Shown piece by piece: positions 6,055 to 40,461 of a stretch of DNA of 40,621 nucleotides; position 1 is the stretch's first letter, and the number at the start of each line of letters is the position of its first letter. The translations under genes were made by a program, and so were the position numbers. The notes below the pieces were generated by a model that was given only the letters and a program-made list of their open reading frames with translations, was not told the origin of the DNA and did no database searches. Origin of the DNA: Syntrophobacteraceae bacterium (lineage in GTDB: Bacteria > Desulfobacterota > Syntrophobacteria > Syntrophobacterales > Syntrophobacteraceae); assembly GCA_031292215.1 (NCBI GenBank), contig JARLHO010000108.1:1-40621 (forward strand), read 5' to 3'.

Positions 6055-6191
6055 CGCCGACTGCTCATAGGTTGCGCCCACCTTTATCGAAAGGAAAAAG
6101 GTGACAAAGACATCGCCACGAAATAGATGCAAAGCGGAATAGCCACCCGAATAACATCTACCGGTAATTGAATCTTTTTCCCTTCAAGTTC
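6046..6191 (-). pseudogene. Fragment of an ACR3-family arsenite efflux permease, frameshifted
   Basis: The minus strand reads KKIQLPVDVIRVAIPLCIYF-VAM down to 6111, then in the next frame FVTFFLSIKVGATYEQSATLS down to 6046. This reproduces the ACR3 stretch Q-L-P-L-D-V-x-R-I-A-I-P-L-x-I-Y-F followed by K-x-G-A-x-Y-E-x-x-A-T-L-S. The break fits loss of one T in the run at about 6107-6109. The expected continuation (F-T-A-A-S-N-N-F-E) is missing because the sequence changes to the chrA fragment at 6045-6054. The N-terminal two thirds are also gone. Confidence 0.75.
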
Positions 6192-6337
6192 CCCTGTGTC
6201 TTCTCCGACAGACACTGCATGCGACGAATTTTCCCTCCACCGGGGATGCAAAGGGGGCCGGCAGCCGGACAAAACGCGCTACGCGTTGCCGCACGGGCGC
6301 ACACATCATTTTATATGGGGAATAGGGTTTGGACATC

Positions 6338-8314
6338 ATGGCATCTCAGAAGGCAATTTCGTTTGGAGGTATTTTATTTTGTGCCATTACAGCGCTGCTT
6401 TGTTTGTCTTGTAGACCCGTATCGGCCCTGGAATCGATTTCAACGCCGATCCTTACATCGATGCCCAATTTCAGAGACCTTGCGGGAATCTCCGCTCTCT
6501 ACGGGGAACCGGCTATGCCGACACGACCAGCCACGATGGCGTGATGCGAACGGGGGGCTTTTATCGTACCGATGCCCTGAGCAGTCTCAGCACCGCCGAC
6601 ACGAAGACCCTCTCGTCACTCGATATCGGACGCGACATCGACCTGCGAGCCCCCTCGGAAATCGCCTCGGCACGCGACCGCGTGCCCCCCGGCATGATCT
6701 ATACCAATATCAATATATACGGCGCCCCCGATGCGCCGCCGCAACCGCCGCTCACCGCCCCGACCTCCGCGGCGGTCGACTACATGGAGGGGCTCTATCA
6801 CAATTTTGTCGCCAGTCCTGTCGAGCGATCGGCGTTTCGAACGGTTTTGCTCGCCCTGGCGACCGACCCCACGGCCGATCTCTACCACCGTTCGGCGGGC
6901 AAGGACCGCACTGGATGGACCTCGGCCATTCTGCAAAGCATAGCCGGCGTCTCGCAGGCGACCATCATGAAGGATTACGTGGCCACCAACCTCTACACGG
7001 CCGCCCTCATACAATCGACGAAGGCGCAGATCCTGGCGGCGGACCCGAACGCGAACGCGGCGGCCCTCGATCTCGTTTCGGGAGTCGAACCCGACTACCT
7101 CCAGACCTCGCTCGATCAAGTGAGCGCTTTGTACGGGTCGATGAACGCCTATTTGACACGGGGATTGGGGCTCACGCAGGCCGACTCTACGTTCTTCGCG
7201 CAAAGATGGTCTACTATCGGACGTTGCCCGGACAAAGCGGCTGTACGGGAAACCGCGCCAACGGCGCAGCGCTTCTCAACGCGCTGCAAAACTCGCCCCT
7301 CTCGGGCCACTACACCGCCTACAACTTCTACCTGCAGTCGGCCGTGGACGCCGGCACGCTGGGAGGAGTCCAAAACCAGGTCGGCGGCCAGGTCTACGCC
7401 GATGCCGCTTCTTTTCTGCTGCGCCGGTCGCAGTGGATCGACCAGGCGATCGCGCCCTATGCGAGTGGCCGCGATCTCGAAGAAGGGCAGACACGTGTCT
7501 GGATGTCGGGCCTCGGGGGCGGATTTTGGACCGGGGGGTCCGCGGACGCCGCCTCCAGCACCGAAAACGACGCCGGCACGCTCGAAGGCATCACCCGCCG
7601 GTTCAACGATCGACTCAGCGGCGATGTGGGTTTCGGCTATGAGTGGGGTTCGGTCGGAAGCGCCGGGGGCAGCGCCTCTCCGGATACGTTTCTGGCAACC
7701 CTGGGCGGGCGCTACGGGATTTCAAGTCTCGATGCCGGTCCCTTCGTCACGGCCCGCGCCGATGTGGGCTCGGTCCACTATGAAAGCACGCGCGTGCTCA
7801 ACGCCGGCCTGGGGGATGCAAACGGGAACACCGACGGCGCCTTTTACGGCGGCCTGGCAGGTGTGGGAGACCTCCTGCGCTTTGCTCCACTTACTTTCAC
7901 GCTGCAAACGGGGGTTCGCGTCTCCGGAGTGCACCTGGGCGGATTCAACGAGAACGGCAGCGAACTCGCCCTGGACGTCAACGGAATCGACAAAACCTAT
8001 TCCAGCCTCTTGTTCAACCTGGGTGTAAGCCTGGACCCTCGGCAGCTGGGCGCCTGGACCATAACGCCGGCCCTTTCTCTTGGCTACGAGCGGGGGTGCT
8101 CGCAAATCCCCGGGTCCAAAGCACCGGAACGCTTTACGGCTACTCGGTGAGCCAGTATTCGGCCTTTGACAGCCGCGACCTGGCCGAAGCCGGTTTCAAC
8201 CTCGAGGCCCGTCGCGGTGCCTTCCTGGTAAAAACCGGCTTCGGCGCTTTGATGGGAGGGGCTGCCGAAAGCGGCGGCATCGATGGACAGGCGGCCATTA
8301 GCTACAGATTCTAA
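6338..8314 (+). pseudogene. Tyrosine-phosphatase domain/autotransporter fusion, broken by three frameshifts
   Basis: The gene starts at ATG 6338 with a signal peptide ending VSA, then MPNFRDLAG, the opening motif of bacterial Y_phosphatase3-type tyrosine phosphatases. Continuity requires three changes of frame: at the G4 run 6503-6506 (to YGGTGYADTTSHDGVMRTG), at the A3 run 7202-7204 (to KMVYYRTLPGQSG) and at the G5 run 8092-8096 (to RVLANPRVQSTGTLYGYS). Each fits loss of one base. The phosphatase signature reads HRSAGKDRTG, with Arg (CGT, 6889-6891) in place of the catalytic Cys. From about 7480 onwards there is an autotransporter beta-barrel ending in SYRF with a terminal Phe. Intact, it would have encoded about 660 residues exposed or released at the cell surface. 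Sequencing error in the homopolymers is the main alternative for the shifts. Confidence 0.85.
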
Positions 8315-27908: not shown

Positions 27909-28027
27909 TATGTTCCCCCCCCATGTTTCCACCGCTTTAAATGACTATCTTGGTGTTCGCCGGGAAGCGGCAAGTGAGGCTGCTAAGGACTAGGGGGCCG
28001 TAAATTGTGAGGGAAGGGCGACTAGCG

Positions 28028-29092
28028 ATGGATAGGGACGGAATAAGAGATCGCGCGGCGGGGGCGGTGGTTGGCGCTTTTATCGGGGACGCCCTCGGAT
28101 TGGGCCCGCACTGGTACTACGATCTTGACCGGATGCGCGCCGATTACGGGCCGTGGATAGATGGCTACACCGATCCCGGGCCCGGCCGCTATCATGCGGG
28201 ACTAAAGGCGGGAGATCTTTCGCAAACCGGGCTGATTACCCTTGAGCTTTTGCGCTCGGTCGCAGAGCGCGATGGATACGACGAACGGGACTTTGCGAAC
28301 CGCCTGGACGAGCAATTTTTGCAAAAAATGGACGGCGCCGCTTACTCCGGGCCCGGGGGATATACGAACCAATCGATCCGGGACCTCTATCGAGCAAGGG
28401 TTAAGGAGGGTAAACCCTGGGGGCGGACTGGCGATTACGCCGATACCACGGAAGGGGCCGAAAGGGCCGTGGTGATTGCCGCAAGATACGCTTTGTCGCC
28501 ATCCGAAGGGGCGCGGATGATAGCCCGAAACATCGGGCTGACACAGATAGACCCTTACGTGAAATCGCTTAGTACGGCCTACTGCGTGATCGTAAGCGCT
28601 CTTATCCGCGGCGAGCCCTTTGACGATGCATTGGCCGGAAAACTCTACTCGATGGTCGAAAAAGCGGAACTTCCCTTTTCTCATGTCGAACTTGCGGAGA
28701 AAAAGGGAACGCATGACCAGGAACCCAAGGCGGCATTCGGGCTGCTCCCTTCGCCGGACGGACTCCTTTTTCCCTCCCACATCCGGGCCGCGGCCAAGGA
28801 CCCCGAAGTTACGATCGAACCCGCGTGGAAAGTGTCCCTGGTCTACGGCATGCCGTGTTCGATCGTTTGCGTGCTGCCGGCCGCCTATTATCTGGGGGCA
28901 AGATTTCACGAGGATTTCGAGCAGGCCGTCCTGCACGCCGTAAACGGGGGCGGGCAGAATATGTCCCGGGCGATGCTAACCGGTGCGCTGGTGGGGGCGC
29001 AGGCAGGGCTATCGAACATTCCCGCGCGCTTTATCGAAGGGCTCTCCAACGGCCGGGAAATTGTTTCTCTTGCTAGACGCCTTGTCCCGTAA
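28028..29092 (+). CDS. ADP-ribosylglycohydrolase-fold protein with degenerate metal sites
   Basis: The 354-residue all-helical protein opens AAGAVVGAFIGDALG, the standard ADP-ribosylglycohydrolase/crystallin J1 start, and ends with GALVGAQAGLSNIPARFIEG. Active members bind two Mg ions through T-D-D-T early on and D-x-D late in the chain. Here the early site reads GDLSQTGLITLELL and the late site NGGGQNMSRAML, so most metal ligands are missing. It may be a binding protein or have another chemistry. The ATG at 28028 has GGAAGGG upstream; an in-frame GTG at 28007 is less likely. It is a lone gene convergent with the quinone reductase. Confidence 0.8.
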   Translation: MDRDGIRDRAAGAVVGAFIGDALGLGPHWYYDLDRMRADYGPWIDGYTDPGPGRYHAGLKAGDLSQTGLITLELLRSVAERDGYDERDFANRLDEQFLQKMDGAAYSGPGGYTNQSIRDLYRARVKEGKPWGRTGDYADTTEGAERAVVIAARYALSPSEGARMIARNIGLTQIDPYVKSLSTAYCVIVSALIRGEPFDDALAGKLYSMVEKAELPFSHVELAEKKGTHDQEPKAAFGLLPSPDGLLFPSHIRAAAKDPEVTIEPAWKVSLVYGMPCSIVCVLPAAYYLGARFHEDFEQAVLHAVNGGGQNMSRAMLTGALVGAQAGLSNIPARFIEGLSNGREIVSLARRLVP

Positions 29093-32354: not shown

Positions 32355-32612
32355 CGGTTTTCTCCTTTACAGTCATAGGGGGCGTTCGCGCGGTTTGTTT
32401 GGCATCTAATGCCTTGCCCTGCTCCGCAGGGTCTACGGTGGGAAAAGCCTTGATGATATTAGCCCGGAAATTCAAAAGATTTAGGAACGCAATGTGTCTT
32501 TTCGAGATGGCGCGTTGGAAAGCGCCAAATCCGCTCCCGGTCCATGCGCAAAACCAGCCATACTCTAAACCTTATATCCGAGCCTTGTCGAAATGCAAGA
32601 GCAAACGGTCAG

Positions 32613-32834: not shown

Positions 32835-32863
32835 TTGACAGGGGGAGCGCCCAATCCTATGAA
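32835..32863 (+). promoter_or_regulatory. Promoter of the nine-gene plus-strand operon
   Basis: A perfect TTGACA (32835-32840) is followed after 17 bases by TATGAA (32858-32863). Transcription would start near 32870, about 55 bases before the first gene. It is the best -35 match I noted in the window. Confidence 0.65.
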
Positions 32864-32926
32864 TGAATTTTGTGTATGCCATGATGACATGAGCCAGGCT
32901 CTACCGATGCGGCGAGGTTGACCAAA

Positions 32927-33454
32927 GTGACTCTCCATGGCCACGAAGTCTACGAGCAAACCGAACATTCGCGCGCCAAGGGAGGCAAAAGGATCGGCCT
33001 GACCATAGCCGTTCTCGCCGTACTTTCCGCCTGTGTGACAATCCTTATGTCCGAAAACAACACCAAAAAGGTCGTAATCGAGGTCAAAACCGCCGATTGG
33101 TGGGCCTATGCCCATTCTAATGCCGGCAACGCAAGGCTCTACGAGGTAGCCGCCAAAATCGCCCAACTGATCCCCGAAACAGGTGTGCGTGTGGCTGCCG
33201 AACTTCGCCGGGAACGCGATGATCGGCAAAAAATATCCCACGATGCGCGCCTCATGGCCCAAGAGCTCGAAAGGCAATCGGCGGCCCTATCCCGTCAGCA
33301 AAATTACTATTCGACGGCAGACCTGCTCGTTCAGTTATCCGTTGTTCTGTGTTCCATCGCCCTGCTAACCGACCTCAACTGGTTTTGGAAGTCATCGTTT
33401 GCCAGCACGGCCGTGGGGCTATTGCTGGCGATAGTGGGGGCGTTGCTTTACTGA
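32927..33454 (+). CDS. DUF4337-type membrane protein
   Basis: The 175-residue protein has one N-terminal membrane helix (RIGLTIAVLAVLSACVTIL) and two at the C-terminus (LLVQLSVVLCSIALL and STAVGLLLAIVGALLY). Between them is a soluble part with WWAYAHSNAGNARLYEVAAK and a charged helix. The W-W-A-Y motif plus this topology fit DUF4337, a family of unknown function. The GTG at 32927 (GAGG nine bases upstream) is preferred to the TTG at 32918. It is the first gene after the promoter, 63 bases before the GT-C gene. Confidence 0.7.
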   Translation: MTLHGHEVYEQTEHSRAKGGKRIGLTIAVLAVLSACVTILMSENNTKKVVIEVKTADWWAYAHSNAGNARLYEVAAKIAQLIPETGVRVAAELRRERDDRQKISHDARLMAQELERQSAALSRQQNYYSTADLLVQLSVVLCSIALLTDLNWFWKSSFASTAVGLLLAIVGALLY

Positions 33455-33517
33455 AAAAACTCGATCGCACCCGATAACAATCGTCTCCGGGAATGGAAAG
33501 CGAGCAAAGACTAAAGC

Positions 33518-34897
33518 ATGAACAATGCGAGAAGAACAATTCTTCTGGGCTGTCTTGGGCTGGCGAGCATTCCCGTCTATGCGATTAACTTCAGGGTAGC
33601 GCCCATCCTTGTAAAAGCGAACCTGATCTCATCCTCGGGCGCTCCGTTTGTATCTTTTCTCTACCAGGTGACGGTGCTCGCAATAATCTATCTAATCGCT
33701 CTTAGGTGCGTTCTTCGGTGGGAAGCGGCCGACCGGCAAAACGGGGCCGTCTTTGTCATACTCTTTTTTGCGATCGTTTTCAGGCTGCTCCTTGTACCCG
33801 GGCGCCCTGTCCTTTCGACCGACATTTACCGCTATGTCTGGGACGGCCGAGTGCAGGCGCACGGCATCAACCCTTACCGGTACCCGCCTGCCGACAAAGC
33901 GCTAAGGAGCCTGCAGGATAAAGACATTTATTCCCGTATGAATCGGCAGGCATCTCCGACCATCTACCCCGCCGGTGCGCAATTACTCTTTCGCGCGCTA
34001 AACGGACTCAAAAGGGACTCCATTTCGGGGATAAAGGGAGCGGACGCTTTATTCGATACGGGTTCCGTGCTGGTGTTGATGGCCATACTTTCCAGCCTGG
34101 GCATGGCACGCGAAAGGGCTTTGATCTACGCATGGCATCCACTGGTGGTATTTGAGTGCGCAAGCAGCGGACACCTGGACGGCTTCATGCTGTTTTTCGT
34201 TTTGCTCTCTTTTCTTTTGATGATCAGGAAACGGACAATTGCATCCCTGGGCAGCCTTGCTCTTGCAGCTTCTTTGAAATTATACCCGGCGATAATCCTT
34301 CCCGCCGTGTTAAAGGAAAAAAAACTTCGAGGGCTCCTGGTATTTTCGATCGTTTTCCTATCGCTCTACCTGCCGTACATCGGGGTGGGGAAAAAGATCG
34401 TGGGGTTTTTGCCCCAATACTTTGAAAATCCCGACCAGAGTTTCAACCTTGGACTAAAGGCCTATCTCGAGAAGTTGTTGCCAAACACTAATCCTTTGGT
34501 ATGGACCGGGCTTTTTGCCGCCATTTTGTTGTGCGCGGCCGGATGGATTTGGATCAGCCATAAGGATACCTGCGCCGCCCTGAGATTTTCCTACTATTTG
34601 ACGGCTCTTCCGATCGTTTTTACCGCGTCTTCGCTGCAGCCCTGGTACATGTTATGGATCATTCCGTTTCTTGCCATTTTCCCTTCTCCGGCCTGGTTCT
34701 ATCTGTCCTTTGCGGTCTGTCTGTCTTACCTCGCGTATGCGCCAGGGCAGATGCTGCCGGGGTGGGAGTGGGTAAGATTTGTGGAATATGTCCCTTTTTT
34801 TGTCCTGCTCGCAGCACAAGTTTTGGCGCAGCGCAAATCCAAGGCAGGATGGTTTCCGTGGGAGACCAGGGAAAAACGGCAAACTTCCGAGTTTTAA
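33518..34897 (+). CDS. GT-C-type integral membrane glycosyltransferase (GT87/mannosyltransferase-like)
   Basis: The 459-residue protein has about ten or more membrane helices. The first periplasmic loop carries STDIYRYVWDGRVQAHGINP, the acidic motif that binds the polyprenyl-phosphate-sugar donor in GT-C enzymes. Later AASLKLYPAIILPAVL and LQPWYMLWIIPFLA are typical of GT87 and related polyprenol-phosphate mannosyltransferases. It would add a sugar to a lipid or protein acceptor at the outer face of the inner membrane. The DPM1-like GT2 directly downstream (14 bases) could make its donor. Confidence 0.85.
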   Translation: MNNARRTILLGCLGLASIPVYAINFRVAPILVKANLISSSGAPFVSFLYQVTVLAIIYLIALRCVLRWEAADRQNGAVFVILFFAIVFRLLLVPGRPVLSTDIYRYVWDGRVQAHGINPYRYPPADKALRSLQDKDIYSRMNRQASPTIYPAGAQLLFRALNGLKRDSISGIKGADALFDTGSVLVLMAILSSLGMARERALIYAWHPLVVFECASSGHLDGFMLFFVLLSFLLMIRKRTIASLGSLALAASLKLYPAIILPAVLKEKKLRGLLVFSIVFLSLYLPYIGVGKKIVGFLPQYFENPDQSFNLGLKAYLEKLLPNTNPLVWTGLFAAILLCAAGWIWISHKDTCAALRFSYYLTALPIVFTASSLQPWYMLWIIPFLAIFPSPAWFYLSFAVCLSYLAYAPGQMLPGWEWVRFVEYVPFFVLLAAQVLAQRKSKAGWFPWETREKRQTSEF

Positions 34898-34911
34898 ACT
34901 GAGGGGTTGAC

Positions 34912-35592
34912 ATGAGGGTTTCCGTCGTTATACCGGCCTGCAACGAGCAGGATGCGATAGCCGCTGTGGTAAAAGGCCTCCCGCCGGGCCTTGTGCAAGA
35001 GGTGATCGTGGTAGACAACGGCTCGACTGACGCTACGGCGCAAAGGGCGGAAAAAGCAGGGGCGCGGGTAGTAAAAGAATCCCGCAGAGGCTATGGCGCC
35101 GCATGTCACAAAGGCCTTATGGCCGTGCAGAAAGCCGATGTGGTCGTATTTCTAGACGGGGATAACAGCGACGACCCGGCCGAATTGCCCTTTTTGCTGG
35201 CGCCTATTGAGTCCGGACGAGCCGATCTTGTGATCGGCTCCAGGCTGTCCGGGGCGATGGAACCAGAGGCGATGCCTTCCCATGCCCGGCTGGGAAATCG
35301 GCTCGTTGCACGGTTCCTGTGCAGTGCTTATAAGGTGAAAATTAGTGACATCGGATCTTTTCGGGCAGTTCGCAAAAGTGTTCTCCTCTCCCTTGGCATG
35401 GAACAGATGACTTTTGGCTGGCCGGTCGAAATGCTGGTAAAAGCTGCCAGGCGTGGGGCCGGAATAGTTGAAGTTCCTGTCAGTTATAGAAAGCGCATCG
35501 GGATTTCCAAAGTTTCAGGAACCGTAAGGGGAACGATCCTTACAGCCTACTACATGCTGTGGATTCCCCTGCGTTATGCCTTCCGGGATTAA
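34912..35592 (+). CDS. DPM1/DPG-like family 2 glycosyltransferase
   Basis: The 226-residue GT-A protein has SVVIPACNEQDAIAAVVKGL, VVDNGSTDAT and the metal-binding DGDNSDDPAEL, then GSFRAVRK and a C-terminal RKRIGISKVSGTVRG. This is the pattern of polyprenyl-phosphate glycosyltransferases and related enzymes. No clear C-terminal membrane anchor is present beyond a hydrophobic end (ILTAYYMLWIPLRYAF). It likely charges a lipid phosphate for the upstream GT-C enzyme. The next gene begins three bases after its stop. Confidence 0.9.
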   Translation: MRVSVVIPACNEQDAIAAVVKGLPPGLVQEVIVVDNGSTDATAQRAEKAGARVVKESRRGYGAACHKGLMAVQKADVVVFLDGDNSDDPAELPFLLAPIESGRADLVIGSRLSGAMEPEAMPSHARLGNRLVARFLCSAYKVKISDIGSFRAVRKSVLLSLGMEQMTFGWPVEMLVKAARRGAGIVEVPVSYRKRIGISKVSGTVRGTILTAYYMLWIPLRYAFRD

Positions 35593-35595
35593 AAG

Positions 35596-36390
35596 ATGGC
35601 TGGAACCGCCCTTATTTTTGACCGTAATGTCGACAAATGGATTCTTTACACCAAGAGCGTCAAGGGCCGTTTGCTCCATGAACTCGCCCGGGATCATCTG
35701 AAGCGGCAGCTAAGCCTTGCCGGGGCGCCGATGAGAGTGCTCGACGCAGGTTGCGGGCCGGCAGATATGGCCTACCCGCTTTTTCCCATCGCCCGGGAAC
35801 TGGTCCTTCTCGATTTTTCGCCAAAAATGATCGAAGGGGCGAAAAAGCGTCTCGCAGTCCGGTATACGCCCGTCGAAATGGAGCGAATCACATTCGTCAA
35901 TGCGGCCGTTGAGCAATTGGACTGCTGTTTGCCCCAAGGTTCATTTGACCTGATCGTCTGCCACAATACACTGGAATACACAAAAGATCCGGGGGCGGCC
36001 CTGGGGGCGTTGGCGAAAAGACTTGCCGCCGGAGGCCTCCTTTCTCTGGTCGTCGCCAACCGTTTCAGCGAGGCTTTTCGATTGGCCTTTGCCAAATGTG
36101 ATCTGGACGGGGCGCGTCTCGCCCTCCACACCGGCACGGCAACCGCCGAGCTGTTCGACCATGCCCCGAAGCGCACATTTTCCTTCGACCAACTCGATCA
36201 AATGGTCGGAAAACTCGGACTGTCCGTTTTGGCGCGTCACGGGATACGCATATTTACGGACTATCTACCGGTGGAGCTGATCGAAGATGAGAGAAATTTT
36301 CCGTTGCTTTTAGCTCTGGAAAAGGAGGCGGCCTCAAGGATTCCGTACATTGCCGTCGCCCGCTATCTTCAACTGGTCTGTAGAAAGTGA
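35596..36390 (+). CDS. CmoM/SmtA-like SAM-dependent methyltransferase
   Basis: The 264-residue class I methyltransferase has motif I VLDAGCGPADM (48-58), VLLDFSPKMIEGAK and FDLIVCHNTLEYTKDPGAAL. The end RHGIRIFTDYL, then LALEKEAASRIPYIAVARYL, closely follows the end of CmoM (formerly SmtA), which methylates carboxymethoxy groups on tRNA wobble uridine. Within this operon it might methylate a carboxylate on the pathway product instead. It lies between the GT2 and the first radical SAM gene. Orthology to CmoM is an inference from pattern only. Confidence 0.82.
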   Translation: MAGTALIFDRNVDKWILYTKSVKGRLLHELARDHLKRQLSLAGAPMRVLDAGCGPADMAYPLFPIARELVLLDFSPKMIEGAKKRLAVRYTPVEMERITFVNAAVEQLDCCLPQGSFDLIVCHNTLEYTKDPGAALGALAKRLAAGGLLSLVVANRFSEAFRLAFAKCDLDGARLALHTGTATAELFDHAPKRTFSFDQLDQMVGKLGLSVLARHGIRIFTDYLPVELIEDERNFPLLLALEKEAASRIPYIAVARYLQLVCRK

Positions 36391-36463
36391 AATGGCCTCG
36401 AGGGCTCCGGCCGGGAGGCAGGGGGTTTTAGCGAACTCGTCTTGTGACCAAGGAGCAGCAGAG

Positions 36464-37465
36464 ATGAATCTTTCTGTCGGATTGGGGCTTACAAACGACT
36501 GCGACCTGAAATGCGCGCACTGCTACAGGCCTCGGGGCAAAATTTATAACCTGACCCTGCGCGATGTTAAGCGTATCTGTGAGAGTCTGGAAGTAGGCTC
36601 GGTCGGATTGGGAACGGGCGAAAACGGATTGAACCCGGAATACTTCTCGATAATCGACTACTTAAGAGAGCGCCGTATCCCGGTGACGCTTGCCTCAAAC
36701 GGCCTGACCGTCCAAACCACCCCCGACCAAATCCTGAAAACTTTTCGCGAAGTGGAATTTTCCGTCGATTTTCCGACCGAAAACGAACAGGACGCGTTTC
36801 GGGGCGAAGGAAACTGGCGCCGAATTTTAAGCGGCATCCAAAGATGCCGGAAACTCGGCATGGAGGTTTCCGTCCTGGCAGTGCTCATGAATCTCAACTA
36901 CGACAAATTGGGTGAGTTGGCAAAGTTTGTCGGCGCGCTCGGCTGCAATCTTCGGGTCAATGTGTTCCAGCCGGCTCACAGCAGAGCCTATATGCCTTCT
37001 TACGATCAATACTGGGAAGCCTTTCGCATCCTTTTCGATCGCTCTGCCCTGATTAGTTGTACCGAACCGCTCGTAAATACTTTTTCGGGGCTAAATACTC
37101 TGCACGGCTCACCGTGCGGATGCAAAAGCATTCGGATCACTCCGCTAAAGGAGGTGCTGCCATGCGTGTATTGGCCCGGAGAGAAGGTGTCTCTATCCGA
37201 ACTCATCGTTTTGAAGGAGGCAATCTTTGACTTGCCTCAGTTCCGGGAATCGAGGCGAACTCCCAAGGGGTGCGGGACATGTGGATACGTTGCCAATTGC
37301 CGCGGCGGCTGCCGCAGCCGGGCATTTTTAGTTGGCGACCCTGACGGCGCGGACACGTTTTGCCCTCTCACCCGAGGGCGAATGGAGAGGCTAAGTTTTA
37401 CGCCGGCGGGTGAAAAAGAGCTCCTTCGATCTCAGAGCATATGCACTACGATCGTCAGGGGATAG
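36464..37465 (+). CDS. Radical SAM/SPASM protein A
   Basis: From the ATG at 36464 (AAGGAG eight bases upstream) the protein has 333 residues. The radical SAM cluster ligands are Cys13, Cys17 and Cys20 (CDLKCAHC). The usual GGEP motif is replaced by GTGENGLNPE (50-59). The C-terminal SPASM-like region has CGCKSIRITPLKEVLPCVYW, then CGTCGYVANCRGGC and a late FCPL, enough cysteines for two auxiliary clusters. SPASM proteins often modify peptides or assemble cofactors. The gene is followed eight bases later by a second radical SAM gene. A longer frame from 36350 overlaps the methyltransferase and is rejected. Confidence 0.88.
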   Translation: MNLSVGLGLTNDCDLKCAHCYRPRGKIYNLTLRDVKRICESLEVGSVGLGTGENGLNPEYFSIIDYLRERRIPVTLASNGLTVQTTPDQILKTFREVEFSVDFPTENEQDAFRGEGNWRRILSGIQRCRKLGMEVSVLAVLMNLNYDKLGELAKFVGALGCNLRVNVFQPAHSRAYMPSYDQYWEAFRILFDRSALISCTEPLVNTFSGLNTLHGSPCGCKSIRITPLKEVLPCVYWPGEKVSLSELIVLKEAIFDLPQFRESRRTPKGCGTCGYVANCRGGCRSRAFLVGDPDGADTFCPLTRGRMERLSFTPAGEKELLRSQSICTTIVRG

Positions 37466-37472
37466 CCTGGAA

Positions 37473-38459
37473 ATGACACTTCCAAAACGGTTGTATGTCG
37501 AGGTGACCAATCGCTGCAATCTCAGGTGCCGCACCTGTGTGCAGTACCGAGGCATGCCGGAAGCCCCCGGAGACCTTTCGCGCGATGAAGTGATGTGGAT
37601 CGCCGACCAGGCGCCCGGTGTGAAAAGCATTGTGCTCCACGGCATCGGGGAACCTCTTCTAAATGAAGAACTCCCGCAGATCATTCGCGGGCTAAAGGAT
37701 AGAGGCCTTTATGTCCTTTTTAATTCCAACGCTCTCCTTCTCACCCCTGCCTTGTCGCAAGAACTCGTTTCGTGCGGACTAGACGAATTCCGCGCCTCCC
37801 TTGATGCCGCAAAAGAATCGACTTACGCCGCCATTCGGGGCTCGGATAAATTTTCCCGCGTGATCGAAAACCTTGCGACACTCATACGAATGCGCAAGGA
37901 AAGCTCTCGGCCAAATCCGCATGTATCCGCCTGGATGGTGGGGACAAAGGACACTGTGGATGACCTGCCGGGTTTAATTCTGCTCGCTTCGAGGATCGGA
38001 ATCGATGAGGTCTACCTGCAACGATTGGTCTATCCTCTGGATGGCCCGGGCTATGGAGCGGCAGAAAGCGATAAGGTCATTTCCAATTCCAGGAAAGAGG
38101 TCCGGGAGATTATCGCGTGGAGCGCATCTTTAAGCAGACGTGTCAATGTCAGGCTGACGGCCTCCGGTGAGGCCGTTTTGCCTGGGAGCCTCTGTGGCAA
38201 CTCCTTGGAACAAGCCCCATGGCGTCGGTGCCGAAGGCCGTGGGAAGTGGCCTATATAACGGCCTGGGGAAACCTTCTGCCTTGCTGCATCTCTCCTTTT
38301 TCCATTCGCGAATACGATTCCCTGATTCTTGGTAACGTATTCGAACAAGGGCTGGAAAACATTTGGACAGGGGAAAAATACCTGGAATTTCGCAGAAGGC
38401 ATCGATCGTTGAACCCGCCGGAGTGCTGCCTGGGGTGCGGTGTGGAATGGAGCCTTTGA
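37473..38459 (+). CDS. Radical SAM/SPASM protein B
   Basis: The 328-residue protein starts at the ATG 37473, eight bases after protein A. The radical SAM cluster is CNLRCRTC (Cys15, 19, 22), and HGIGEPLLNEEL provides a GGEP-like motif. The C-terminal SPASM segment reads CRRPWEVAYITAWGNLLPCC and ends CCLGCGVEW. It is distinct from protein A, not a recent duplicate, so the two probably act in sequence or as partners on one substrate. No small precursor-peptide gene was recognised next to it. Confidence 0.88.
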   Translation: MTLPKRLYVEVTNRCNLRCRTCVQYRGMPEAPGDLSRDEVMWIADQAPGVKSIVLHGIGEPLLNEELPQIIRGLKDRGLYVLFNSNALLLTPALSQELVSCGLDEFRASLDAAKESTYAAIRGSDKFSRVIENLATLIRMRKESSRPNPHVSAWMVGTKDTVDDLPGLILLASRIGIDEVYLQRLVYPLDGPGYGAAESDKVISNSRKEVREIIAWSASLSRRVNVRLTASGEAVLPGSLCGNSLEQAPWRRCRRPWEVAYITAWGNLLPCCISPFSIREYDSLILGNVFEQGLENIWTGEKYLEFRRRHRSLNPPECCLGCGVEWSL

Positions 38460-38469
38460 GGGGGCGGGT

Positions 38470-39159
38470 GTGAGAACAATTGTCGTCATAGTGGCAAAAG
38501 AGCCGGTTGCCTCACGGGTAAAGACGCGACTATGTCCCGATCTGAGCCCTGTCCAGGCCGCTGAGATTTATTCCCTCTTCATACAGGATATGGTCGAAGA
38601 AATGTCGGATCTTTTTCCGGCCACACTCGCTCTCGCCTATAGTCCGGAAGGGTCGATGAGCGCCTTCGAGACCATCCTGCCCCGGACCATCCCCATGTTT
38701 GCTCAGCATGGGGCGGGGCTGGGGGAGAGGCTTTCCCATATTTTCACCAGGCTCCACAGCGAAGGCTACGAACAAATCCTTATCATAAACAGCGACAGCC
38801 CCGATATGCCCTGCTCGCTTGTCCGTAAGTCCACAAGGCTTCTCGCATCGCCGGGGATCGACCTGGTGCTCGGTCCCTGTGCAGATGGGGGCTACTACCT
38901 CATAGGCCTTAAAAAACCGGCGCCTGAGCTTTTCCGGGGTATTCCCTGGAGCACCGACCGCGTGCTGGCGTTGACCCTTGAGCGCGCAAGTGAGCTGGGG
39001 CTATCGTGCGGTCTTCTCGATGTCTGGTATGACATCGATACCTGCGAGGATCTCCTGATGTTTCTTGAACGCGGCAAAAGCAGAAACGACGGGTGCGGCC
39101 CGGGCTGGAGGACCCGGAAATATCTAAGGAATTTACCGGGTATTCATGGAGTGACATGA
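38470..39159 (+). CDS. CofC-like 'rSAM-associated' transferase (DUF2064/TIGR04282 type)
   Basis: The 229-residue GT-A/nucleotidyltransferase-fold protein has VIVAKEPVASRVKTRLCPDL, INSDSPDMP and GPCADGGYYLIGL. I know this family as the transferase repeatedly found beside radical SAM proteins, related to the guanylyltransferase CofC. The GTG at 38470 (GGGGGCGGG upstream) avoids the overlap that an earlier start would have with protein B. Its presence next to two radical SAM genes agrees with the family's habit. The donor and acceptor are unknown. Confidence 0.85.
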   Translation: MRTIVVIVAKEPVASRVKTRLCPDLSPVQAAEIYSLFIQDMVEEMSDLFPATLALAYSPEGSMSAFETILPRTIPMFAQHGAGLGERLSHIFTRLHSEGYEQILIINSDSPDMPCSLVRKSTRLLASPGIDLVLGPCADGGYYLIGLKKPAPELFRGIPWSTDRVLALTLERASELGLSCGLLDVWYDIDTCEDLLMFLERGKSRNDGCGPGWRTRKYLRNLPGIHGVT

Positions 39160-39185
39160 CCTAAAACAGGGGAGGCGTACCGCTG

Positions 39186-39815
39186 ATGAATCCTTTTTCC
39201 GATACCTTTACGTATCTTTTGCAGCCAAAATGGCCCATTTATCTTCTCTGGCTTCTTCTGCTGGGAGCAGCGGTTGCCGTGGTCTACAATCTGATGGTTG
39301 ACAACGGGCAGCGAAACGTAAAGGATATCTGGATGTGTATCGCGCGTATACTGCTCGGAAACATGTGGTGGCAGCAGACACTCTGGAAGCTGCCCCCCTA
39401 TTACACCGATCTTCCATCGGTACCGAACAGTGGCTTGAAACACTGGATGATAGAATTGGTTCATAGCGCAGCTTTCGCCATTCAAAGCGCCTTGGTGAAG
39501 AACATCGTCCTGCCTCACTTTACTATCTTCGCTCCGATGGTTTACGGCATGGAAGTCTTTATAGGCGCCACATTGATTTTGGGGCTCTTTTTGCGGCTGG
39601 GCGCGACCCTCGGGGCGCTAATGGCCATAAACCTCTGGCTGGGCCTCTACCGAGCACCGACGGAATGGCCCTGGACTTACTTTTTCCTGGTGTTGCTGCA
39701 AATAACGTTTGCGGTTCTACAGGCGGGCCGCAGTCTCGGGTGCGACGCGATTATCGCCCGGAGGCTCGGCGAGTCTAAAGGCGTGATGGGGCGAGTGCTG
39801 GGCTTAATCACCTGA
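39186..39815 (+). CDS. DoxX/TQO-DoxD-like membrane protein
   Basis: The 209-residue protein has four or five membrane helices (IYLLWLLLLGAAVAVVYNL; MVYGMEVFIGATLILGLFLR; LGALMAINLWLGLY; YFFLVLLQITFAVLQAG). The layout, with W-x-x-TL-WKLPPYY between the first helices and R-L-G-A-T-L-G-A-L-M-A-I-N in the third, fits the DoxX/DoxD family of small membrane redox-associated proteins. GGGGAGG precedes the ATG. It sits 26 bases after the transferase and 16 before the DJ-1 gene. Confidence 0.75.
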   Translation: MNPFSDTFTYLLQPKWPIYLLWLLLLGAAVAVVYNLMVDNGQRNVKDIWMCIARILLGNMWWQQTLWKLPPYYTDLPSVPNSGLKHWMIELVHSAAFAIQSALVKNIVLPHFTIFAPMVYGMEVFIGATLILGLFLRLGATLGALMAINLWLGLYRAPTEWPWTYFFLVLLQITFAVLQAGRSLGCDAIIARRLGESKGVMGRVLGLIT

Positions 39816-39831
39816 GGGAGGCAATTGGGCA

Positions 39832-40461
39832 ATGTCGGATGAAACGGTCAATATCCTGCTTTTTCTGGCGCAGGGCTTTGAAGATCTCGAAGCCGCAACT
39901 GTGCTCGCCGTATTTGGCTGGACCCATTACCGGGAAGAAACGGACAAAGCTTTAGTAACTACTTGCGCCTTTCACGACATTGTGAAAGGCCGGTTCGGTA
40001 TGGAAGTAAGGCCGGACATCCTCTTTTCTCAAATCGACCCGAAACGGTATCGCGCCCTGGTCATACCCGGAGGTTTTCACAGCCACGGCTACGATGAGGC
40101 CTACGACCCCCGGATTCATCGGCTTGTCCGTGAGATACACGCGCATGGAGGCTATATAGCCACGATGTGTGTCGGTATACTGCCGGTAGCCGATTCGGGG
40201 GTTCTAAACGGGAAAAAAGCCACAACCTACCCGTACAGCCGCAATCGCGATAACGCGGGAAGATTGATTGCGGGCGGCGCCACAGCGGATGATGGACCGG
40301 TTGTAATAGACGATCGTATCATCTCGTGCGGCGGCCCGGGAACAGCTATGGAGGTGGCCTTTTTGTTGATGGACCGGCTGATAGGGCCGCAAACCGTACG
40401 CGATGTCCGCCATTATATGCTCTTCAGGGACGGGGAGCCGGCAATGTTTTTGAGCGACTAG
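39832..40461 (+). CDS. DJ-1/PfpI family protein
   Basis: The 209-residue protein has the conserved glutamate E17 (QGFEDLEA) and the nucleophile elbow TMCVGILPVA with Cys113. A later CGGPGTAMEVAFLLMDRL is a family signature. Members are glyoxalases/deglycases, proteases or redox-sensing chaperones. It is the last gene of the operon, and the stop is followed at once by palindromic repeats. It may protect the pathway from reactive carbonyls, but this is a guess. Confidence 0.88.
   Translation: MSDETVNILLFLAQGFEDLEAATVLAVFGWTHYREETDKALVTTCAFHDIVKGRFGMEVRPDILFSQIDPKRYRALVIPGGFHSHGYDEAYDPRIHRLVREIHAHGGYIATMCVGILPVADSGVLNGKKATTYPYSRNRDNAGRLIAGGATADDGPVVIDDRIISCGGPGTAMEVAFLLMDRLIGPQTVRDVRHYMLFRDGEPAMFLSD

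Follow-up and report, generated by a model that had tools for sequence, protein, structure and literature searches.

What do two radical S-adenosylmethionine (SAM) enzymes do in a row of genes that also encodes glycosyltransferases, and do these genes form a system at all? The question is raised by positions 32,835 to 40,461 of JARLHO010000108.1, a contig of 40,621 bases (C42) from a 4.9-Mb metagenome-assembled genome of a Syntrophobacteraceae bacterium; the entire contig is the window analyzed here. A preliminary description had reported nine plus-strand genes separated by short gaps, in a combination that it did not recognize. Open reading frame (ORF) listing places all nine as described, with intergenic gaps of 3–73 bases at the likely start codons, and Pfam and NCBIfam models uphold the family names, although DoxX/DoxD only marginally. 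Here, we show that five of the genes, encoding a GT-C glycosyltransferase, a GT2 glycosyltransferase, two radical SAM proteins (rSAM-A and rSAM-B) and a DUF2064 enzyme, form together with a variable methyltransferase a real, conserved and apparently undescribed cassette. The combination was rightly taken as new: its core is co-localized across phyla, neither radical SAM protein fits a characterized family, and searches of the open-access literature turned up no account of it. Because the genes are linked and match no pathway that we found described, they probably make an unfamiliar sugar-containing molecule at the cell membrane.

A neighborhood search for co-occurrence had been proposed in the preliminary description as the check on whether the genes form a system, and it was run here on 37 independent loci with an rSAM-A relative, recovered when 84,980 species genomes were scanned. 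By profile searches of these loci (one truncated DUF2064 included; many contigs end early), rSAM-B lies near rSAM-A in 20 of the 37, in 17 of them as the next gene downstream on that strand, with GT2 nearby in 24, DUF2064 in 19 and GT-C in 18. All five genes are found together in 13/37 loci from several phyla, and a methyltransferase of either of two types is present in eight loci that have rSAM-A, rSAM-B, GT2 and DUF2064. The linkage is kept across Desulfobacterota, Binatota, Alphaproteobacteria and others. Among 98 related genomes, strong matches to rSAM-A (399–860 bits) occur in eight, namely the window's own, one elsewhere in the phylum and six that belong to a different family within the same class, and strong matches to rSAM-B (193–795 bits) occur in the identical eight. 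The two genes adjoin in seven of these; in the exception, G055, the cassette is apparently broken (L051/L052), with ~2 Mb separating rSAM-A and GT2 from a fragment of rSAM-B. Transposase-like and integrase-like ORFs are seen in the rSAM-A neighborhood of that genome. The distance matrices of the five families correlate for every pair (rho 0.81–0.94, permutation p 0.001 each), which argues that the five-family unit is co-inherited, with shared species history also contributing. The conserved unit consists of GT-C, GT2, (methyltransferase), rSAM-A, rSAM-B and DUF2064.

rSAM-A (36464..37465, plus strand; likely start ATG 36464 in an ORF open from 36350) is a radical SAM protein (PF04055, E 1.1e-19) with a 7-Cys SPASM domain. 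In an alignment of 34 rSAM-A sequences (A3), the CX3CX2C radical SAM motif is found as C13-C17-C20 and the SPASM motif as C218, C234, C270, C273, C279, C283 and C300, of which C270 is replaced in Lokiarchaeal members; GTGEN is conserved at the usual position of GGEP. No NCBIfam model scores rSAM-A above its cut-off, and the best, the mycofactocin maturase MftC (TIGR03962), reaches 79.3 bits against a cut-off of 265 (71–126 bits for the relatives). An extra cysteine, C327 (numbered from the methionine at 36464), is invariant in 34/34 sequences. It lies within the last 26 codons (37385..37462), in which a variable linker precedes a conserved C-terminal tail, SICTTIVRG, with a CTT(I/V) core and a near-invariant threonine. 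The tail is kept as LVHxxYLCTxIG even in plasmid-borne Streptomyces, Enterococcus and Phaeobacter relatives of 26–28% identity.

The AlphaFold2 model of this protein of 333 residues has a mean predicted local distance difference test score (pLDDT) of 94.2 and a predicted template modeling score of 0.91. Its barrel starts at residue 3, leaving no N-terminal extension, and the tail is ordered, with a strand at residues 329–332 (pLDDT ~92). That the tail is a loose fused peptide is unlikely given this order. In anSME, the fourth cysteine of auxiliary cluster I (Aux I) is not supplied by the 7-Cys motif; the tail cysteine of rSAM-A presumably either binds a cluster or acts as a thiol in the active site. 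Among solved structures, the closest folds are those of SuiB (Z 24.0), anSME (23.7), sactipeptide enzyme 5why (22.0) and BlsE (21.6). The distant rSAM-A relatives are encoded on plasmids of Streptomyces clavuligerus (L138), Enterococcus sp. (L139) and Phaeobacter inhibens (L140). At L138 and L139 the gene follows another radical SAM gene, which looks like the B12 type, and at the Enterococcus and Phaeobacter loci an inorganic diphosphatase follows it. The three loci resemble an uncharacterized cluster for a small molecule, carried on plasmids of which two are conjugative.

rSAM-B (37473..38459, plus strand; likely start ATG 37473 in an ORF open from 37410) scores 60 bits on PF04055 and 54 bits on PF13186 (cut-offs 29.5 and 21.5), and has a CX3CX2C motif and a SPASM/twitch-type C-terminus. 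It falls into no curated family, the best NCBIfam match being the tungsten cofactor oxidoreductase maturase TIGR04317 at 144.6 bits against a cut-off of 380. Invariant cysteines in an alignment of 20 rSAM-B sequences (A4) are C15, C19, C22, C253, C271, C272, C319 and C322, and 20/20 relatives end in WSL. The best solved relative by sequence profile is BtrN (E 4e-17, matching best over the C-terminal cluster domain) and the best fold match is DesII (Z 25.0, root-mean-square deviation 3.4, 287 aligned residues). Because BtrN acts on an aminocyclitol and DesII on a thymidine diphosphate (TDP)-sugar, a sugar substrate for rSAM-B is plausible by analogy.

The glycosyltransferases are in keeping with a lipid carrier. 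The membrane protein GT-C (33518..34897, plus strand) matches GT87 (PF09594) with 34.1 bits at a cut-off of 25 and carries a conserved SxDxYRYxWDGR motif. GT2 (34912..35592, plus strand; PF00535, E 3e-23) resembles AglJ and DPM1, polyprenyl-phosphate glycosyltransferases: its best NCBIfam model is AglJ (TIGR04182; 144.7 bits, under the cut-off of 325), and it matches the dolichol-phosphate-mannose synthase 5mlz with E 1.7e-14, with dolichyl-phosphate hexose transferase also among its nearest relatives. The preliminary description had proposed that GT2 makes a lipid-phosphate sugar and GT-C uses it, a scheme that would fit the families, with an AglJ/DPM1-type GT2 and a GT87 protein of the polyprenol-phosphate-mannose-using kind. 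The DUF2064 enzyme (38470..39159, plus strand; start at about 38470 in an ORF open from 38440), of nucleoside triphosphate transferase fold, passes TIGR04282, a model named for arsenosugar biosynthesis, with 181.9 bits (cut-off 134), and matches the solved nucleotide-diphospho-sugar transferase 3cgx with E 1e-29. The class I SAM methyltransferase (35596..36390, plus strand) is CmoM-like, with CmoM (NF008264) as its best NCBIfam model at 92.5 bits against a cut-off of 366. This gene is an optional member: a methyltransferase of the window's cluster is also found in L056, L057 and L075, a different one (MTc7) in 9 loci, and a third (c18) in Lokiarchaea.

For each of the five core genes, L056 and L057 hold the cassettes closest to the window's. 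In Desulfobacterales the usual order is MTc7 methyltransferase, cellulose-synthase-like GT2, GT-C, DUF547, GT2, rSAM-A, rSAM-B and DUF2064, and the same genes are divergently arranged in L081 (Hyphomicrobiaceae) and L084. Many loci also encode the cellulose-synthase-like membrane GT2 together with a secreted protein of the DUF547 or transglutaminase-like kind, additions that fit an envelope glycoconjugate being assembled on a lipid carrier; in L083 a transglutaminase-like protein gene lies just upstream of rSAM-A. The cellulose-synthase-like GT2 was rejected as a core member, the window's genome having no orthologue and only matches of 24–30%. Three Lokiarchaeal loci (L078, L079 and L082) have a methyltransferase, rSAM-A and DUF2064 in a row, sometimes with GT2. 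Two further genes recur beside cassettes. A dodecin-like ORF of ~70 aa is located immediately upstream of the MTc7 gene in L065, L068, L069, L071 and L092, and an exported protein of 414 aa with carboxypeptidase-regulatory-like and C-terminal c-type cytochrome domains is encoded beside the cassette in L060, L065 and L068–L071, often on the opposite strand.

The preliminary description had treated all nine genes as one system, and this holds for the five-gene core plus the methyltransferase. The flanking genes for a DUF4337 protein (32918..33454, plus strand; PF14235, E 2.5e-21) and a DJ-1/PfpI protein (39832..40461, plus strand; PF01965) have counterparts in none of the other loci compared and stand outside the system. 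The DoxX/DoxD-like membrane protein (39186..39815, plus strand) is an occasional member, with DoxX genes next to the cassette in the window and in L057, L072/L055 and L076. The contig ends 160 bases past the DJ-1 gene, which leaves the right border of the cassette outside it. The one strong promoter claimed for the nine genes did not hold up: it traces to TTGACA-N17-TATGAA at 32835, of which the −10 is poor, and a scan of the region gave 6 promoter-like sites against 4.4 expected from shuffled DNA, none of them at 32835.

The left side of the cassette hints at how it came to lie here. DNA similarity to same-genus genomes ends at window position 32355–32467, just before the cassette side, and close relatives of rSAM-A and rSAM-B are found in none of the ten same-genus genomes within the 98-genome search. 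In four of these ten, the neighboring benzoate-CoA-ligase-family gene has 85–91% protein identity. Given the breakpoint and the patchy distribution, the cassette was probably acquired by horizontal transfer; loss in all same-genus relatives is less likely. Bin contamination was rejected as an explanation, as the contig's benzoate-CoA-ligase-family gene and its neighbors are ~76–86% identical in DNA to same-genus genomes. Elsewhere in the window, a lone gene of the ADP-ribosylglycohydrolase family (PF03747) is located at 28007–29092, between a lipoyl-synthase-like region and the benzoate-CoA-ligase gene, and 6168–8150 encodes a protein with a C-terminal autotransporter beta-domain (PF03797). 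Rfam and tRNA scans of the window gave no matches.

What, then, might the cassette make? With nearly, but not quite, an even chance of being right, we read it as a biosynthetic cassette for a sugar-containing molecule on a lipid carrier, with radical modification of the sugar or of a small polar precursor. We infer its substrate, step order and product as follows. GT2 would load a hexose onto polyprenyl phosphate; rSAM-A and rSAM-B in succession, using 5'-deoxyadenosyl radicals and auxiliary iron-sulfur clusters, would act on this sugar or on a small polar precursor by oxidation, deamination or rearrangement; the methyltransferase would cap the product of the radical steps; DUF2064 would activate or transfer a (nucleotide) sugar; and GT-C would use the lipid-linked sugar on the membrane's outer face. 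More tentatively, we propose that the pathway has not been described before, that horizontal transfer has carried it into several bacterial phyla, with a minimal form in Lokiarchaea, and that its two SPASM radical SAM enzymes remodel a sugar that goes into a membrane glycoconjugate made with a lipid carrier. On this view, rSAM-A would belong to a new superfamily in which the invariant C-terminal Cys tail serves as an extra cluster ligand or catalytic thiol. To our knowledge, radical SAM enzymes acting on lipid-linked sugars are hardly known. The interpretation in the preliminary description is thereby partly supported. It had allowed for a sugar, lipid or peptide product modified by the radical SAM pair; the peptide is the part not borne out, with no precursor ORF found, and the substrate presumed here for the pair is a sugar or small polar precursor.

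Several points weigh against a lipid-linked sugar pathway. By fold, rSAM-A comes nearest to the peptide enzymes SuiB and anSME (Z 23–24), and rSAM-B matches a peptide enzyme, SkfB (Z 24.1), in a tie with DesII (25.0), so the folds leave the substrate unfixed. The rSAM-B model is of only moderate confidence (pLDDT 78.5). Co-divergence of the five families may come partly from species phylogeny, the minimal Lokiarchaeal version has neither rSAM-B nor GT-C, and all complete cassettes among the loci found are from uncultured organisms.

The Lokiarchaeal set is also a striking analogue of the arsenosugar toolkit, which is why arsenosugar-type logic stays the main rival, although we consider it unlikely. 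Here, the methyltransferase, rSAM-A, DUF2064 and GT2 would produce a methylated element or thiol compound conjugated to a 5'-deoxyadenosyl or ribosyl group, the tail cysteine holding the substrate, in parallel to ArsM/ArsS with the TIGR04282/TIGR04283 transferases. Consistent with this, the minimal set is methyltransferase, rSAM-A and DUF2064 (with or without GT2), the window's DUF2064 passes TIGR04282, ArsS loci in relatives' genomes carry DUF2064 and GT2, and the Lokiarchaeal methyltransferase has sub-threshold ArsM matches. However, rSAM-A does not belong to TIGR04167 (ArsS). The only TIGR04167 gene of the genome, a TGA-containing selenoprotein, is on a separate contig (C141, locus L123) near its own DUF2064, 25% identical to that of the window; the preliminary description had counted a selenodomain radical SAM protein as absent, and one is present in the same genome on C141, outside the window. 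By eye, the neighbors at L123 are carboxymuconolactone-decarboxylase-like, disulfide oxidoreductase-like and TVP38-like proteins. Moreover, GT2 fails TIGR04283 (44.7 bits, cut-off 182) and is nearer to AglJ, the window methyltransferase is CmoM-like and gives only 20–22 bits on ArsM models with cut-offs of 240–510, and GT-C and rSAM-B are left without explanation.

To a pathway for a ribosomally synthesized and post-translationally modified peptide (RiPP) or a mycofactocin-like redox cofactor, in which SPASM enzymes modify a peptide that is then glycosylated and methylated, we give a small chance. The mycofactocin maturase is the best NCBIfam match of rSAM-A, whose nearest folds are peptide-modifying SPASM enzymes; mycofactocin itself bears a glucan chain, which MftF attaches (PMC7491314); and a c-type cytochrome protein is encoded near several cassettes. 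However, the MftC score is 79 against 265 bits, the MftF model (TIGR03965) gave 44.2 bits against a cut-off of 280, MftA-, B-, D- and E-like genes were not seen, and rSAM-A, at 333 residues, is too short for an N-terminal peptide-binding domain. We downgraded the peptide reading because, among small ORFs of 18–110 aa within 8 kb in 38 loci, only the dodecin-like ORF and its antisense shadow recur.

Two further explanations appear improbable. In one, rSAM-A modifies its own or a partner's CTT(I/V) tail, which would be an integral substrate or a transient carrier and would be glycosylated afterwards. A variable linker followed by an invariant cysteine and a near-invariant threonine, even at 27% identity, would suit such a tail, but in the model it is ordered and its placement is confident, as for a cluster ligand or active-site lid, and the wider family without GT-C, rSAM-B or GT2 retains it. 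Just as improbable is that the radical SAM pair matures a metalloenzyme or secreted protein, with the glycosyltransferases unrelated: the best match of rSAM-B is indeed TIGR04317, but its 145 bits fall short of the cut-off of 380, the cassettes share no recurrent oxidoreductase, and the glycosyltransferases are linked as tightly as the radical SAM genes. A chance neighborhood of ordinary genes deserves next to no credence and is already refuted for the core, which recurs in 13 other loci of several phyla, even if DUF4337, DJ-1 and partly DoxX are incidental.

The proposed glycoconjugate cassette offers a defined five-gene unit for expression, and the new radical SAM subgroup poses a single-residue question, the role of the invariant tail cysteine. 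The cassette also suggests that the transferases that take their name from arsenosugar biosynthesis work in one or more further radical SAM pathways. Recurrence in Desulfobacterota, Binatota and Alphaproteobacteria, together with a stripped-down version in Asgard archaea, adds to its importance.

Set beside known systems, the cassette shares with the arsenosugar locus the toolkit of a radical SAM protein, DUF2064, GT2 and a methyltransferase, but has two radical SAM proteins of other families, an AglJ/DPM1-type GT2 and an added GT-C. As in the mycofactocin pathway (MftC, MftF), a SPASM radical SAM protein, with MftC as the top sub-threshold match of rSAM-A, goes together with glycosyltransferases; however, scores are far under the cut-offs, no precursor peptide was found, and GT-C and a polyprenyl-type GT2 replace MftF. 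BtrN and DesII are the sequence and fold matches of rSAM-B, respectively, but at ~20% identity, and their context is an antibiotic cluster rather than a membrane glycan. AglJ or dolichol-phosphate mannose synthase, paired with a GT-C of the GT87 or MptA/B type, shares the logic of a sugar placed on polyprenyl phosphate and used by GT-C, and we know of no such system with a radical SAM pair, DUF2064 or a linked methyltransferase.

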